A stretch of 64,000 nucleotides of DNA from Halorhabdus salina (GCF_013839425.1 NZ_JACDNP010000001.1:186001-250000), one strand, 5' to 3'. Positions 54,517 to 61,669 are shown, counted from the stretch's first letter. Notes: generated by a model from the letters alone, not told the origin. Numbers and translations are program-made.

Positions 54517-55674
54517 TTAGGCCTCGCCCAACCCAACCGCCTCGGCGTCCGCCCGTGCCCGATCGGCCGCCGCCTCGACATCGAACTCTCTGACGATCTC
54601 CCCATCACGAACGAGTGGTTCCATGAGCGATTCGCCGTCGGCCGGCCCCGGCTGACTCGCGAGACCGACCTCGTGGCCGCCATCGGGCGTCCGGTAGACG
54701 GCTTTCTTCCCGGAGAGCTTCCCGCGCTTGGCGACTGGTTCGCCGTCGATTGCGACGATATCCAGGGCGAAGTCCTTCGGGTCAGCGTTGGAGACGTACC
54801 CGCCGACGCCGAACCCGTCGGCGACGTCACCCAACGCCCGCAACGCCGCGGGATCGAGGCCGCCGCTGAGGAAGATGTCGACGTCGTCGTACCCGCGGGC
54901 GTCGAGTTCCCAGCGCACTTCCTGGACGATCCGTCGGAAGTCACCCCGCCGGGAGCTGGTCGTATCGAGCCGGATACTATCGAGGCCCGCAACGGCTTCG
55001 ACGGCACGGATCGCTTCATCGACTTCGTCGCTGTAGGTGTCACATAGGGCCACTCGCGGGACATCGGTACCGACTGCCTCGTCGAAGCCACGCCAGGCGG
55101 CTTCCTGGTTGCCGCGCCCGAAGCAAATCACCAGCGCGTGGGGCATCGTGCCGCCGGCTTCCCGATCGATCACGTCACCAGCAGCGACGTTCGAGATGCC
55201 ATCGAGGCCGCCGAGCAAGGCGCTCCGTTCGATCATCGCCCCCAGTGAGGGGTGGACGTGCCGGGAGCCGAAACTCAGGACTGTCGAGTCCGGCGCAGCC
55301 AACCGGGCGCGCACAGCGTTGGTGGCGACGCCGGTCGGATGGGAGAGAAAGCCCAGTAATGCAGTCTCCAGCCTGGCGAACTCCCGATACCGGCCTTCGA
55401 TCCGCATGACTGGCCCGTGATCGAACAGTTGGCCCTCGGGTAGGGCATCGACATCGACGGGATGGCCTTCGAGCAGGTGGGCAGCGTCTTTCAATCCAGC
55501 CAGAACGGCGAACTTCCCGGTCGGAAACTGATCAGCCGAGACCTCCGCGACGACCTGGGGGTCCTTTCCGGCGTGTTCTAAGGTCTCCATCGTCCGGTCG
55601 AAATAGGCGTCCGTCGCTCGGCCCGACGCGATCGCCGACGGGGGCACAATGTCGAACGGCGACTCTTCAGTCAT
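54517..55674 (-). CDS. Nicotinate phosphoribosyltransferase
   Basis: 385 residues. Makes nicotinate mononucleotide from nicotinate and PRPP in NAD salvage. Contains TDAYFDRTMETL near the N-terminus, ALLGFLSHPTGVATNA, FGSRHVHPSLGAMIERSALLGG, VALCDTYSDEVDEAI, SIRLDTTSSRRGDFRRI and FLSGGLDPAAL, which mark the archaeal/short clade of the family. Nicotinamidase (61097-61669) in this window would supply its substrate, although the surface-protein array lies between them. Confidence 0.93.
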   Translation of the reverse strand: MTEESPFDIVPPSAIASGRATDAYFDRTMETLEHAGKDPQVVAEVSADQFPTGKFAVLAGLKDAAHLLEGHPVDVDALPEGQLFDHGPVMRIEGRYREFARLETALLGFLSHPTGVATNAVRARLAAPDSTVLSFGSRHVHPSLGAMIERSALLGGLDGISNVAAGDVIDREAGGTMPHALVICFGRGNQEAAWRGFDEAVGTDVPRVALCDTYSDEVDEAIRAVEAVAGLDSIRLDTTSSRRGDFRRIVQEVRWELDARGYDDVDIFLSGGLDPAALRALGDVADGFGVGGYVSNADPKDFALDIVAIDGEPVAKRGKLSGKKAVYRTPDGGHEVGLASQPGPADGESLMEPLVRDGEIVREFDVEAAADRARADAEAVGLGEA

Positions 55675-55707: not shown

Positions 55708-57444
55708 CTACCCGTCCCAACCCGCATCACGTACGCGCCACACCGCGAGAAGAGCCACCGAAAGCAGACTGACGACCGCTCCGACGACCGCGAATCCGGG
55801 TCCGCTGGTAGTCGTCGCTGTCTCAGCCATGGGCCCGTTGCTGGCAGTTGCTGTCTTGGCACTGGTCCCGTTGCTGGCAGTAGTCGTCTCTTCGACCGCC
55901 GGAGCAGCACCCGCCCGAACCGCCGAGAGCGCGCTGACGGTGGGCGCGTTGACGATGACGAACTGGTCGCCAGTCTGATTCAGGTAGAACGCGTCACCGA
56001 ACGCCTTCTCAGTAGGGATCCGGTAGGTATCACGGTGGCCATCGACTGGCTGGGCACCGTAATAGGCGAGCAGATCCGTATATCCCGCGGCAAACTCGGC
56101 GGCGTCCCCCTCGCTATCCCAGACGGTCTTCCAGACGTAGCCCGTCTCGTTGGTCGTCGCAGAATCGTTCGTGATGTAGGGATACAGCCGGTCGTTGTCC
56201 CAGCCGTCCGTGACGTCGAGACCGTAATTGAGCGGATCGACGCTGCTCACCTCACCCGAATCAGTGTAATTGTAGAACTCAACCGGCCCGACGACAGGTG
56301 TCGCCATGCCACTGGAAGCAAAGACCGGCCGCATGAACATGGCGCTGAGGCCAGCCTGACCGAACCGGGCATACTCGGCACTCCCGTTCCCGAGATCAGG
56401 ACTGCGCCAGGCGTCCGCGCTGGTGTCGATAACCGTGAGATTGTGCGGCTCTTCGTCCGGGTACTTCTCGGGATGAATCGTCTGCTCCGTCGAGGCCGGT
56501 GGGTTCTCGTAGATGTCGTTTACCGCGTCCCACCCGCCCGTGGCGCGGATCTCGGTGACGAAGGTGGGGCCGTCGCTGTAGGGCTGGTACTGGGTCAAGT
56601 AGACCCCGTAATTGATAGCTGGCTCACTGTCGCCCGCGTCGCTATCCGTCTCGTCGTCGGCACTGTCACTGCCGTCCGTGCCAGTCCCGGGCTGGAGACA
56701 GTTCCACTCGGCCCCACAGCGTTGCTGGTACAGTTGATCGACGAGGTTGGCGTCACCTTCGACGATCCCGTTACCGGCGTTGTGTCCTTCCTCTGTCAGC
56801 CGATCGAACGAAAGATTGAATTGCTGGTCCTGAAGAGCGTGAAACAGTTCCTGTGAGAGCGTGATCTCGTCCATTTTCGGGACCGATTCGTTTGCCGAGA
56901 CGATGACGATCTGCTCGTTCCCGGGCGAGTAGAAGCCCCCGACAGTCGCTGATTGAGTCGACCGGTAGCCAGCCAGTGCGTCCTCGTCTTCGCCGATCGA
57001 GAGCAGCGCTTCCCACTTGACGTTCTGGTGGAGGCGATTGGCCGTCGACGTATTCGGCGTACTCGCATTCGTTCCCCACCGGTTGCGGTACTCCTGGCGC
57101 GAGACGACCTCTACGCTCACTGTCGTCTCGAATTCCAGGCGACGGATCTGCTCGACGCGGGCCATCGATCGCCCGACCACGGCTTCGAGTTCCGAATCGT
57201 TGAGGCCGTTTTCGGGCGTCACGTCGATCGACTCGTTGTACCAGTAGCCGTTCTCCCACCCGAGACGGTCTGCCGGTGGGTCCGACTGGGAAGCCTCGAT
57301 GACTGAGACATTCGCGTCCGATGGGGCGGCACCCAGCCCGCTGTCGGTGCCCGGTGACGACGCGATCGACGCGGCTGCAGGTGCGAGGACCGTTCCTACC
57401 AGGACAGCGACGATCAGGACGGCAACGAAGCGACGAGAGACCAT
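55708..57444 (-). CDS. Hvo_1808-family surface protein, copy 1 (QEXXH variant)
   Basis: 578 residues. N-terminal Sec-type signal (RRFVAVLIVAVLVGTVLAPAAA), a family core beginning DRLGWENGYWYNESIDVTPENGLND (58-84), and a C-terminal Thr/Ser-rich spacer with a PGF-CTERM-like end: PGF, hydrophobic helix, then Arg. This fits export and lipid anchoring by archaeosortase. In the core, residues 198-202 read QELFH where copy 3 has HELVH, and Glu229 (VEGDA) matches a third zinc ligand. An acidic insert (about 250-275) is specific to this copy. Its own promoter has a 14-base element shared with copy 2. Confidence 0.85.
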   Translation of the reverse strand: MVSRRFVAVLIVAVLVGTVLAPAAASIASSPGTDSGLGAAPSDANVSVIEASQSDPPADRLGWENGYWYNESIDVTPENGLNDSELEAVVGRSMARVEQIRRLEFETTVSVEVVSRQEYRNRWGTNASTPNTSTANRLHQNVKWEALLSIGEDEDALAGYRSTQSATVGGFYSPGNEQIVIVSANESVPKMDEITLSQELFHALQDQQFNLSFDRLTEEGHNAGNGIVEGDANLVDQLYQQRCGAEWNCLQPGTGTDGSDSADDETDSDAGDSEPAINYGVYLTQYQPYSDGPTFVTEIRATGGWDAVNDIYENPPASTEQTIHPEKYPDEEPHNLTVIDTSADAWRSPDLGNGSAEYARFGQAGLSAMFMRPVFASSGMATPVVGPVEFYNYTDSGEVSSVDPLNYGLDVTDGWDNDRLYPYITNDSATTNETGYVWKTVWDSEGDAAEFAAGYTDLLAYYGAQPVDGHRDTYRIPTEKAFGDAFYLNQTGDQFVIVNAPTVSALSAVRAGAAPAVEETTTASNGTSAKTATASNGPMAETATTTSGPGFAVVGAVVSLLSVALLAVWRVRDAGWDG

Positions 57445-57463
57445 ACGGTCGGTCCGTGCGAGC

Positions 57464-57477
57464 GCCTTACAAATCTC
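57464..57477 (-). promoter_or_regulatory. Promoter element of Hvo_1808 copy 1
   Basis: gagatttgtaaggc (minus strand) starts 20 bases upstream of the ATG at 57444. The identical 14-mer lies at the same distance before copy 2. Confidence 0.5.
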
Positions 57478-57519
57478 TCGGATCGGCCCACTGAACGTGG
57501 CCCGGACAGGATACGCCCG

Positions 57520-59157
57520 TTAGCGACGACGAGTGACGATCACAAGCAGCCCAACGACAGCAAGGAGTGCTGTCGCGACCGTAAATCCACCACCAGTGGT
57601 GGTCGTGGTCCCGTCACTCTCGGTTGTCGTCCGGTCACCCTGTGGCGCTGCGCCGGCCCGGACCGCTGAGAGGTCCTCGACACTGGGCGCGTTGACGAGC
57701 ACCAGTCGATCCCCAGTCTGGGTGACGTAGAACGCGTCACCGAACCCCTGATCGTCTGGAATGCGATACGTGCCAATTCGCCCCTCGACTGGCTCGGCCC
57801 CGTTGAACTGGAGGAGTTCCGCGTAGGCATCCCGGAACTCGGCGGCGTCCGCAGACGAGTCCCAGACCATCTCGTAGACGTACCCCGTCTCGTTGGTCTC
57901 GCTGGAGTCGTCGGTCACGTACGGTACCAGCTTGTCGCCGTCCCAGCCTGCTATAGCGGTGTGGTTGTAATTGTACGGGTCGAACTGGTCGACATTGCCG
58001 GCATCGTCGTAATTGATGTGGTTCTGTAATGGAACGATCGAGGTCATTCCCTGGGTCTGGACCGCGGGATACCACAGCGTCACGTAGAGGCCAGCCTCGC
58101 CGAACGAGGCATGATCGACACTCCCGTTGGACTCGAGTGGCCGCCAGCGATCCGAACTCCGCTCTGGAACTGACACGTCAGTCGGTTCGTCCTCGCCGTA
58201 CTTTTCGGGGTGGATGGTCTGTTCCGTCGAGGCCGGTGGATTCTCGTAGATCGCATTGACCGCGTCCCATCCCCCCTCCTCGCGAATCCCTTCGACAAAC
58301 GGCGGGCCGTCACTGTACGGCTGGAGGAGGATCTGGTACAGTCCCAGATGTGGATCGAAGTCCGCGGGCGTGTTCTGTCCCGACGGTTCGAGGCAGGTCC
58401 CGTTCCAGGCCCCGTCACAGTGTTCCTGATAGAGGTGATCGACGTAGTTGCCATCCCCTTCGATGATACCGTCTTTCGCGTTGTGGAGTTCCTGCGTCGA
58501 CTGGTTGTACGCAGAGACGTTGAATCGCTGGTCCTGCAGGGCGTGAAACAGCTCCTGAGAGAGCGTGATTTCGTTCATCTGTGGCGTCTCCGTGTTCTCG
58601 GAGACGATCTTGATCTCGCCCGTCGAGGGATCGTAGAATCCACCGACGCCACCCGCGCGATTGTCCGCCTGCACCGCAACAGCATCGGTCGATTCGTTGA
58701 CCATAAACAGTGCCTCATACTTGACGTTCTGGTGGAGGCGCTGGGCATCGGTCGTATTCGTCGTCCCGTTTGCGACGCGCTGGCGGTAGTCCGCTCGACT
58801 GATGACCTCGACCGGCGGCGTCGTCTCGAACTCGAGGCGGCGAATCTCCTCGACCCGGGCCATCCCCCGGGCGACGACGGCCTCGAGTTCCGAGTCGTTC
58901 AGCCCGTCTTCGGGCGTCACGTCGAGGGTCTCGTTGTACCAGTAGCCGTTCTCCCAGCCCAGAACGTCAGTCTCGGGATCGGGGAAGTGCTGGTCGGCGA
59001 TGGAACTAGCATTCGTGACAGCAGCTTGCTGGGAATCGATGAACGTGTCGTGGACAGGACCGGAAACGGCGGGACTGGGACCGATCGCCCCAGCCACCGG
59101 CACGCCGGCCAATCCGACCGCGACGATAACAACGACCAATTCAGTTCGGGAGACCAT
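57520..59157 (-). CDS. Hvo_1808-family surface protein, copy 2 (QEXXH variant)
   Basis: 545 residues and closely similar to copy 1 through the core (VLGWENGYWYNETLDVTPED, EAVVARGMARVEEIRRLEFET, LHQNVKYEAL, IYENPPASTEQTIHPEKY). N-terminal signal helix VVVIVAVGLAGVPVAGAIG. Residues 201-205 read QELFH and Glu233 lies in IEGDG, so the first zinc His is again Gln. The end is GGGF, hydrophobic helix, RRR, a weakened PGF-CTERM. Shorter than copy 1 mainly because it lacks the acidic insert. It has its own promoter element. Confidence 0.85.
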   Translation of the reverse strand: MVSRTELVVVIVAVGLAGVPVAGAIGPSPAVSGPVHDTFIDSQQAAVTNASSIADQHFPDPETDVLGWENGYWYNETLDVTPEDGLNDSELEAVVARGMARVEEIRRLEFETTPPVEVISRADYRQRVANGTTNTTDAQRLHQNVKYEALFMVNESTDAVAVQADNRAGGVGGFYDPSTGEIKIVSENTETPQMNEITLSQELFHALQDQRFNVSAYNQSTQELHNAKDGIIEGDGNYVDHLYQEHCDGAWNGTCLEPSGQNTPADFDPHLGLYQILLQPYSDGPPFVEGIREEGGWDAVNAIYENPPASTEQTIHPEKYGEDEPTDVSVPERSSDRWRPLESNGSVDHASFGEAGLYVTLWYPAVQTQGMTSIVPLQNHINYDDAGNVDQFDPYNYNHTAIAGWDGDKLVPYVTDDSSETNETGYVYEMVWDSSADAAEFRDAYAELLQFNGAEPVEGRIGTYRIPDDQGFGDAFYVTQTGDRLVLVNAPSVEDLSAVRAGAAPQGDRTTTESDGTTTTTGGGFTVATALLAVVGLLVIVTRRR

Positions 59158-59176
59158 ACTGTCTCTGTGAGTGAGA

Positions 59177-59190
59177 GCCTTACAAATCTC
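59177..59190 (-). promoter_or_regulatory. Promoter element of Hvo_1808 copy 2
   Basis: gagatttgtaaggc (minus strand), identical to the copy 1 element and again starting 20 bases upstream of the ATG at 59157. Confidence 0.5.
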
Positions 59191-59228
59191 CCGGTGGTCC
59201 CGATCGGCGGCCGGGAAACGCTCCGGGG

Positions 59229-60929
59229 TCAGCGTCGGGTAGCGACAGCGAGCCCGAGGAAGGCCAAAAGCGCCGCCACGAATCCGAAGCCAGGGCCGCC
59301 GGTCGTCGTCGCGCCAGTGCGCTCATCGCGGTCGGTTGTCGTCGCTGCCGAAGTAGTCGTTGTCGTCTGGGTCGTGGTCGCTGTGCCGGTCGCCGTACTC
59401 GTCTCGGTTGGCGTCGCACCCTCCGGAGCAGCTCCTGCTCGCACGTCAGACAAGGCCGGGACACTGGGCGCGTTGACGACCAGCAGCTGGTCGGCCGTCT
59501 GGTTGACGTAAAATGCGTCACCGTAGGGATTCTCATCACGAACCCGATAGGTGTTCTCGTGGCCAGCAACCGGCTCAGCACCGCGATAGTCGAGGATATC
59601 GACGTACGCCTCCTCGAACGCCGCCGCGTCGGACGGACTGTCCCAGACCGTCGACCAGACGTAGCCGGTCTCGTTCGTCTTGGCAGACTCCGCAGTCACG
59701 TACGGTACCAGTTTGTCACCATCCCACCCCTGCGTCGCGTCGGAATTATAATCGTAGAAGAACGGTGATTGGGCGCGAAGTGACTGATTGAACGGTGCAG
59801 ATTGAGGTATGACGACCGACATACCGGACTCGTAGCTTGGGAACCACAGCAGTGTGTACAGGCCAGCTTCGCCGATCGTGTCCGCTGCCGTCTGGCCATC
59901 AACGGTGAGTGGCTGCCAGTCGGCACTGCTCCGGTCCGGGACGGTTACTGTCTGAGGTTCGTCCGACTGGTATGCTTCTGGGTGAATGACTTGCTCGGTG
60001 CTGTTGGGGAAGCTATCGTAGGCGTCGTTGACGGCGTCCCAGCCGCCGCGATCCCGCAACGTGGCGACAAACTCGGCCCCGTTGCTGTACTGGACGTAAT
60101 TGAGAAATGCGAGACCGACAGCCCCATCAGAGAAGCCAGGTCCGCCACCGCTGGCTGCTGGCGTAACACACTTCCAGTCGGCCCCACAGCGTTGTCCGTA
60201 CAGATAGCCCACGTGACTCGCGTCACCTTCGATCAGTCCACGGCGGGCGTTGAACGAATCCGTCGCCTGATTACCGCCCCTGAACGTGACGTTCAGCTCC
60301 TGAACTTGCAGCGCGTGAACGAGCTCGTGACCGAGCGTGAGTTCCGAAAACGACGCCTGTCCCTCATCCATGACGATCGTGACGTCACCTGCCTGCAAAT
60401 CGAGTTCCGGGACGGCATTGGGAACCACGAACGCGGCCGCAAAGCCACCCTGGCGCTCTCTGATCGCAGCGGTGGCGTTCCGATCCTCACCGCGAAACCC
60501 GAGGGCCTCCAGTTGGACGTTCGCCGACAACGGATCGACGTCGACCGATTCGGCGTACTCTACGTAGTCACTTCGATCGATGAAGTTGAGGTCGACCGGC
60601 TCGTCGAATTCGACGCCCCGAATCACCTCGACGCGCGCCATCGTCCGGTTCAGAAGGCTGGCGGCTTCAGCCCTGTCGATCCCGTCCGAGGCGTCGATGT
60701 CGATGGATTCGTTGTACCACACCCCGTTCTCCCACCCGAGCCGATCCGTCTCCGGATCGGGCGGGCTCGTCAAAACGGTCGCTTCCCCGTCACCAGCTCC
60801 CGTAGCCACCGATCGGTCGTCGAACTGTGCCGTCGAAACGCCTGCCTGCGTCGCCGCGGCCGTCACCGGTTGGAGGGCGAGGACTGCAACGGCGAGGACA
60901 GCCAGGAGTTGTGCGCGCTTAACTCGCAT
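59229..60929 (-). CDS. Hvo_1808-family surface protein, copy 3 (intact HEXXH)
   Basis: 566 residues from the ATG at 60929. Signal peptide AQLLAVLAVAVLALQPVTAAATQ; core starts DRLGWENGVWYNESIDID. Residues 201-205 are HELVH, followed 28 residues later by Glu234 in GLIEGDASH, the arrangement of a gluzincin-type metallopeptidase; the two downstream paralogues have lost the first His. The C-terminus has a Thr-rich spacer and GPGFGFVAALLAFLGLAVATRR, a good PGF-CTERM signal. It is the most divergent of the three and has a different promoter with a 16-base palindrome. Confidence 0.87.
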   Translation of the reverse strand: MRVKRAQLLAVLAVAVLALQPVTAAATQAGVSTAQFDDRSVATGAGDGEATVLTSPPDPETDRLGWENGVWYNESIDIDASDGIDRAEAASLLNRTMARVEVIRGVEFDEPVDLNFIDRSDYVEYAESVDVDPLSANVQLEALGFRGEDRNATAAIRERQGGFAAAFVVPNAVPELDLQAGDVTIVMDEGQASFSELTLGHELVHALQVQELNVTFRGGNQATDSFNARRGLIEGDASHVGYLYGQRCGADWKCVTPAASGGGPGFSDGAVGLAFLNYVQYSNGAEFVATLRDRGGWDAVNDAYDSFPNSTEQVIHPEAYQSDEPQTVTVPDRSSADWQPLTVDGQTAADTIGEAGLYTLLWFPSYESGMSVVIPQSAPFNQSLRAQSPFFYDYNSDATQGWDGDKLVPYVTAESAKTNETGYVWSTVWDSPSDAAAFEEAYVDILDYRGAEPVAGHENTYRVRDENPYGDAFYVNQTADQLLVVNAPSVPALSDVRAGAAPEGATPTETSTATGTATTTQTTTTTSAATTTDRDERTGATTTGGPGFGFVAALLAFLGLAVATRR

Positions 60930-60950: not shown

Positions 60951-61096
60951 CAATAGTAATAAGTATTTTCCTTCTTGTCGCGTTTACTTGCTTCGACGGG
61001 CGTGCGTGTTCCAGCCTCGGCCCAGGGATGACACAACCCAACTGGGACTGAAAGCCAGAACCTCTAATGGCCACAATCCCGAACGGGGAGACAACA

Positions 61097-61669
61097 ATGA
61101 CGTTCGAACCGGACCGGACTGCCGTCGTCGTGGTCGACATGCAGAACGGCTTCTGCCACCCTGAGGGGAGTCTCTACGCACCGGCAAGCGAAGACGCCAT
61201 CGAGCCGTGCGTCGACCTCGTCGATCGCGCACGCGAGGCCGATGCGACCGTCGTCTACACGCGCGACGTCCACACCGACGAGCAGTTCGAGGACGCTCAC
61301 TACTACGACGAGTTCGAGCGCTGGGGCGAACACGTCCTCGAGGGGAGCTGGGACGCCGAACTGATCGAGCAACTGCAGTCACGCGAGCCCGACCTCGCTA
61401 TCGAGAAACACACTTACGACGCTTTCCACGAGACCCAACTCGACGGCTGGCTCTCCGCCCGCGGGATCGACGATCTCCTTATCTGTGGAACGCTGGCGAA
61501 CGTCTGCGTCCTCCACACCGCTGCCAGCGCCGGCCTCCGGGACTACCGCCCGATCCTCGTCGAAGACGCCGTCGGGTTCATCGAGGACGACCACCGCGAG
61601 TACGCCCTCGATCACGCCGACTGGCTGTTCGGCGAGTTGACCGACCGCGAATCGATCACGTTCGCCTGA
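61097..61669 (+). CDS. pncA: Nicotinamidase (isochorismatase-family)
   Basis: 190 residues from the ATG at 61097; an ATG at 61067 would add ten weakly conserved residues. Converts nicotinamide to nicotinate. The catalytic triad is visible: Asp14 in VVVVDMQNGF, Lys in AIEKHTYDAF and Cys in TLANVCVLHTA, with the cis-peptide before the Cys helix. DVHTDEQF provides the metal-site His/Asp. The next gene overlaps its stop by one base. With the nicotinate phosphoribosyltransferase at 54517 it forms a salvage pair. Confidence 0.88.
   Translation: MTFEPDRTAVVVVDMQNGFCHPEGSLYAPASEDAIEPCVDLVDRAREADATVVYTRDVHTDEQFEDAHYYDEFERWGEHVLEGSWDAELIEQLQSREPDLAIEKHTYDAFHETQLDGWLSARGIDDLLICGTLANVCVLHTAASAGLRDYRPILVEDAVGFIEDDHREYALDHADWLFGELTDRESITFA

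Follow-up and report, generated by a model that had tools for sequence, protein, structure and literature searches.

In the window, the 64,000-nucleotide stretch of Halorhabdus salina DNA analysed here, three minus-strand genes for surface proteins of the Hvo_1808 family (NCBIfam NF038145) follow one another head to tail (55708-60929). Read from the upstream gene, their putative metal-site motifs are HELVH, QELFH and QELFH. The array raises the question of whether the two copies with Gln in place of the first zinc-binding His are broken peptidases derived from their neighbor, or whether they carry a working site of a second kind.

The layout itself, an Hvo_1808 array with one HEXXH and two QEXXH copies, had been described in an earlier note on this DNA, and the open reading frames, motifs and profile scores confirm it (Table 1). 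All three proteins match the full NF038145 profile at 486-581 bits against a cut-off of 200 bits. Gaps of 71 bp (members 1 and 2) and 75 bp (members 2 and 3) separate the genes. The site reads GHELVHALQ...LIEGDASHV in member 1, SQELFHALQDQ...IIEGDGNYV in member 2 and SQELFHALQDQ...IVEGDANLV in member 3. Members 2 and 3, the two Gln proteins, are 53% identical, compared to 42-43% between member 1 and member 2. Outside the array, the same genome holds a fourth family gene (C1:119483-120856), which has the motif AHELVHVLQ.

Table 1. Positions of the array genes, their motifs and the flanking genes within the window.
Feature	Position	Strand	Description and basis
Isochorismatase/nicotinamidase-like gene	61067..61669	+	By sequence reading; divergent; conserved neighbor on the other side
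Family member 1, 566 aa	59229..60929	-	Signal peptide, HELVH...IEGDA, C-terminal PGF-type anchor; NF038145 486 bits
HELVH of member 1, residues 201-205	60315..60329	-	Sequence
Glu234 of member 1, predicted third ligand, first residue of EGDA	60228..60230	-	Sequence; helix 223-247 of model
Family member 2, 545 aa	57520..59157	-	QELFH...IEGDGN, weak C-terminal anchor (GGGF); NF038145 581 bits
QELFH of member 2, residues 201-205	58543..58557	-	Sequence; helix 196-212 of model
EGDGN of member 2, residues 233-237, second Gln-class motif	58447..58461	-	Sequence; helix 222-248 of model
Family member 3, 578 aa	55708..57444	-	QELFH...VEGDAN, PGF-CTERM anchor; NF038145 561 bits
QELFH of member 3	56839..56853	-	Sequence
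EGDAN of member 3	56746..56760	-	Sequence
Nicotinate phosphoribosyltransferase-like gene	54517..55674	-	By sequence reading; co-directional, 33 bp downstream of the array; conserved neighbor

The earlier description also gave all three proteins PGF-CTERM anchors, weakened in the second copy. This is roughly right, if generous. Against the TIGR04126 profile (cut-off 24.5 bits), member 3 scores 30.6 bits and lies above the cut-off, member 1 falls just under it at 18.3 bits, and the profile search gave no match for member 2, whose C-terminal end reads GGGF.... The genome does contain a gene for the archaeosortase ArtA. Across the family, a locus typically comprises one or two copies, of A-type upstream and of B-type downstream, and a crude regular-expression survey finds a lipobox in approximately half of both. 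In the same survey, a C-terminal hydrophobic anchor occurs mainly in Gln forms (27/66, without lipobox) and is rare in His forms.

To describe the putative metal site, we built AlphaFold2 models of members 1 and 2 with an alignment of family members. The model of member 2 has a mean pLDDT of 85.5 and a pTM of 0.83, with most core blocks at 90-98, and that of member 1 has a mean pLDDT of 81.9. In member 2, Q201-E202-x-x-H205 falls within helix 196-212, and E233 within the one that follows (222-248), with block pLDDT above 90 for both; in member 1, HELVH (201-205) also lies on helix 196-212 and Glu234 on helix 223-247. Throughout the family alignment, 26-30 residues separate the second His from the downstream Glu. 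Because (H/Q)ExxH occupies one helix and the Glu the following one in both models, the predicted arrangement is that of the gluzincins, clan MA(E), in which HExxH likewise sits on one helix and the third ligand, a Glu, on the next. Many family members also match the Pfam zincin families DUF6782, M78 and M76 weakly, with DUF6782 foremost (23/57 members at E 0.01, best 3.4e-6); members 1-3 themselves are assigned to no Pfam family, their best matches being below or near threshold. The helices of the models and these weak matches support the proposal that HELVH and a downstream Glu form a gluzincin-like site on a surface-anchored protein. We regard the gluzincin-like character of the family site as moderately supported, with metal and activity as predictions. 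Member 1 has the HExxH of the active-site helix, whereas members 2 and 3 have QELFH and, unlike gluzincins, lack the first ligand. Members 2 and 3 are thus relatives of gluzincins and not canonical members.

Comparison with solved structures gives little guidance. A sequence search of the PDB found no relative, and a Foldseek search of the PDB with the models of members 1 and 2 returned nothing at E ≤1e-3. The best match of the member 2 model is the peptidase domain of Collagenase H (7zoc; E 3.1e-3, probability 0.69, TM <0.25), which is a gluzincin, but the match is too weak to imply membership and is absent for the His model of member 1. Separately, residues ~405-500 of the member 2 model, a range inferred from secondary structure, bear a weak likeness to the PknH extracellular / TiME domain of mycobacteria (4esq; Foldseek probability 0.99 but E 0.04).

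The neighborhood of the array suggests one alternative to a peptidase. A tblastn search with the two flanking genes places both at 89/120 family loci across haloarchaea, and the nicotinate phosphoribosyltransferase-like gene shares the strand of the family genes at most of them. From these neighbors, we take the locus to be core and its orthology to be secure, and the gene order hints at a link with pyridine salvage. The proteins might then not be peptidases at all, their fold having been taken over for a different hydrolytic or binding function at the surface, tied to pyridine-nucleotide salvage. The flanking genes and the lack of a clearly similar solved structure in our searches favor such a role, but the synteny may be nothing more than inherited gene order, and the conserved HExxH...EG site and the weak matches to several zincin families point back to a peptidase. 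We consider a non-peptidase role unlikely.

The family is present in 390/391 genomes of the class, and among 229 distinct aligned domains the first-ligand position holds only two residues, His in 163 and Gln in 66. No variation occurs in the xExxH Glu, the second His or the downstream Glu (229/229), and all 66 Gln forms accordingly retain the general-base Glu, the second His and the third ligand. Within the Gln forms, 49/443 columns are invariant. The Gln class is also marked by residues around the predicted pocket: Phe or Tyr at +3 occurs in 66/66 Gln forms and 0/163 His forms, the glutamate motif is EGD[GA]N with Asn in every Gln form (66/66), and about a dozen further positions distinguish the class. 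The mixed pattern HEL[FY]H[AG]xQDQ is found in 0/391 class genomes. His with Phe is nonetheless possible in the wider superfamily, as HELFH occurs in L190, a distant paralogue outside the family cut-off. In terms of codons, the two states differ by a single third-position transversion (CAG/CAA versus CAC/CAT). Independent contrasts provide limited support for coupling between Gln and the pocket residues: four supported pairs all agree in direction (sign test p 0.125). A strict Gln pattern matches at least 53 genomes in 16 genera and six families, compared to 271 genomes for the strict His pattern; the Gln count is a lower bound, as genomes G001 and G007 carry QELFHAVQ, which the pattern misses.

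These counts bear directly on the main rival to a metal-binding Gln site, namely that the Gln forms are conserved pseudoenzymes whose fold and pocket bind a peptide or a cell-surface partner, with the metal lost and no catalysis. One of three zinc ligands is indeed missing, zincin pseudopeptidases usually arise through substitution at the zinc site (PMC11266112), and tandem copies are common at the family locus. In the zincin pseudopeptidases ADAM2/11/22/23, FtsHi and Gone early, the first zinc ligand is replaced too, often by Gln in the ADAMs (PMC11266112). However, loss of the general base or of several ligands is usual among documented zincin pseudopeptidases (PMC11266112), and none of the 66 Gln forms shows it. 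They change exactly one residue of the site, always to Gln, and keep the rest invariant across a wide divergence. The earlier reading of the Gln copies as derived pseudoproteases is not supported for a form that is ancient, conserved in many genera and intact at the base and the other ligands. We judge conserved pseudoenzymes to be possible but on the unlikely side, all the more so given the apparent repeated return to full HExxH described below.

Nor do the copies in this genus look recently broken. Their omega values (YN00) are 0.11-0.16, compared to 0.13 for the His copy, indicating that purifying selection acts on the Gln copies as it does on the His copy and on the flanking genes.

A narrower possibility is that the HELVH copy gave rise locally to the Gln copies, which act as its inhibitors, decoys or complex subunits. 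The tandem, co-directional genes with their short gaps suit such a partnership, and at many other loci a Gln copy likewise adjoins a His copy. But Gln forms occur in many genera, approximately half of the Gln loci have no His neighbor, and the tree does not derive the Gln copies from the HELVH copy. In four genomes, Halobacterium salinarum (G018), G001, G007 and G002, the Gln form is the only family member. Because it stands alone there, acting as an inhibitor or adaptor of the His paralogue cannot be its general role, and the same holds for the decoy and subunit roles suggested previously. A paired Gln-His heterocomplex as a general rule was rejected on the same grounds, many Gln loci and these four genomes having no His member. 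We therefore regard local derivation as very improbable.

How the two states arose can be read in part from phylogeny. B copies always carry His, and the Gln sequences are confined to the A clade. On our main tree (76 sequences, motif columns removed), the Gln forms are not one clade (AU p 8e-9, ΔlnL 167.5), and their distribution requires seven state changes, of which well-supported branches force four. Outgroup homologues from other archaea of the phylum are all HExxH, as are the distant haloarchaeal paralogues, and because of these homologues the root state is His. An equal-root Mk fit placed Gln at the root, in conflict with the HExxH outgroups, and the fit with a His root was used instead. 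With a His root, the two-rate model yields approximately one gain of Gln and several reversions to His, event numbers that are model-dependent and that rest on an A clade with weakly supported deep branches. A model that permits only His-to-Gln change fits far worse (lnL -39.9 versus -26.0). Together with the AU test, this rejects a single origin of Gln without reversal. An early gain of Gln took place in one paralogue clade of the haloarchaea, and reversion to His seems to have followed several times, in some cases between orthologues at a single syntenic locus.

The clearest return to His is found in Halorussus. Here the Gln copies L036, L037, L040 and L044 occupy a syntenic locus that, in one genome of the group, holds a His copy (L148). 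L148 is sister to a Gln copy (support 100/96), keeps 11/16 Gln-class residues away from the motif and has no visible recombined tract. Another His sequence, L025, from a short locus, is also sister to a Gln copy (100/98) and keeps 12/16 Gln-class residues. Gene conversion at the metal site was considered for L148 and L025 and rejected, as sliding identity is at least as close to Gln as to His relatives, even near the site. A third His group (L023/L006/L010) may be recombinant: its N-half and C-half trees disagree, and the N-half tree places it outside the Gln clade.

The array in the window may contain a further case. Member 1, with HELVH, nests among Gln copies on a long branch in the whole-domain, N-half and C-half trees, and forcing it out costs 19 log units (AU p 0.08, not formally rejected). 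The earlier note had derived the Gln copies from the HELVH copy; the polarity now looks reversed, with the HELVH copy arising out of Gln copies, though the tree is not decisive.

Homologues with HExxH...EG[DS]A (L176-L189), none of them Gln, occur in other lineages of the phylum, and because of them the family must predate the haloarchaea. Haloarchaea also contain distant HExxH paralogues of ~400-490 aa (L174, at G000:C6:7203-7925; G000:C19:140653-141135; L169; L191-L193) that share the family's domain order, although their NF038145 scores are far under the cut-off (69.8 bits for L174, against 200). Two of them, L174 and L169, have a lipobox.

A precedent for a working Gln site exists outside the archaea. 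VMP3 of Volvox carteri is described as a QEXXH metalloproteinase that prefers copper (Heitzer and Hallmann 2002, as cited in PMC7717551). VMP3 shares with the Gln forms the replacement of the first-ligand His by Gln and the retention of the general base and the second His. It differs in carrying the metzincin motif QEXXHXXGXXH, in which the third ligand is a His, whereas the family's predicted third ligand is a Glu of another helix; members 2 and 3, which read QELFHALQDQ, do not show the metzincin HxxGxxH extension.

Given these observations, the reading we prefer is that the array genes belong to a family of metallopeptidases found throughout the haloarchaeal class, gluzincin-like and anchored at the cell surface, whose metal site has two states. 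The starting state would be HExxH...E, and an early copy would have switched to a second stable state in which Gln takes the place of the first zinc-binding His, in concert with an aromatic residue at +3 and with EGD[GA]N on the helix of the Glu. Gln, the second His and the Glu could still hold a metal, possibly not zinc but, for example, copper, and with the conserved Glu as general base the protein would stay catalytic or at least metal-binding. Return to His would take one transversion (CAR to CAY) and changes at two neighboring pocket positions, and would apparently have happened several times, plausibly including member 1.

We put the chances at about even that the Gln site binds metal, is probably catalytic and possibly uses a metal other than zinc. 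A more specific version, in which His or Gln as first ligand and a three-part pocket module (H/V/A versus Q/F/G-N) form a reversible switch and the Gln form is an active non-zinc, most likely copper, protease, is more tentative, and we would sooner doubt it than rely on it. The data themselves show the motifs and their conservation, the coupled pocket residues, the paraphyly of Gln, the purifying selection and the genomes with a lone Gln copy. Metal binding, metal identity, catalysis and substrate are what we infer here, and several points weigh against the inference: Gln is a weak metal ligand, VMP3 is a metzincin and its precedent an analogy, and the frozen residues could serve folding or peptide binding.

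Previous work on the family is sparse. Hvo_1808 has been treated as a lipobox protein and substrate (PMC2945643); our literature search found it named only in that capacity and found no report of the His/Gln dimorphism. The NF038145 description mentions neither the metal site nor the dimorphism. What appears to be new is a naturally occurring switch between metal ligands, apparently reversible, within a gluzincin-like family. If the Gln form is indeed an active copper protease, it would be the gluzincin counterpart of the QEXXH enzyme from Volvox. A small number of substitutions may here have altered the metal specificity of HExxH enzymes. A replaced zinc ligand is usually taken to prove that an enzyme is dead, and the family offers a large natural data set against which to test that reading: one archaeal class, one position, two residues, coupled pocket changes and switches between syntenic orthologues. 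For this surface family, nearly universal in haloarchaea and almost without published work, it also provides a functional hypothesis that can be tested.
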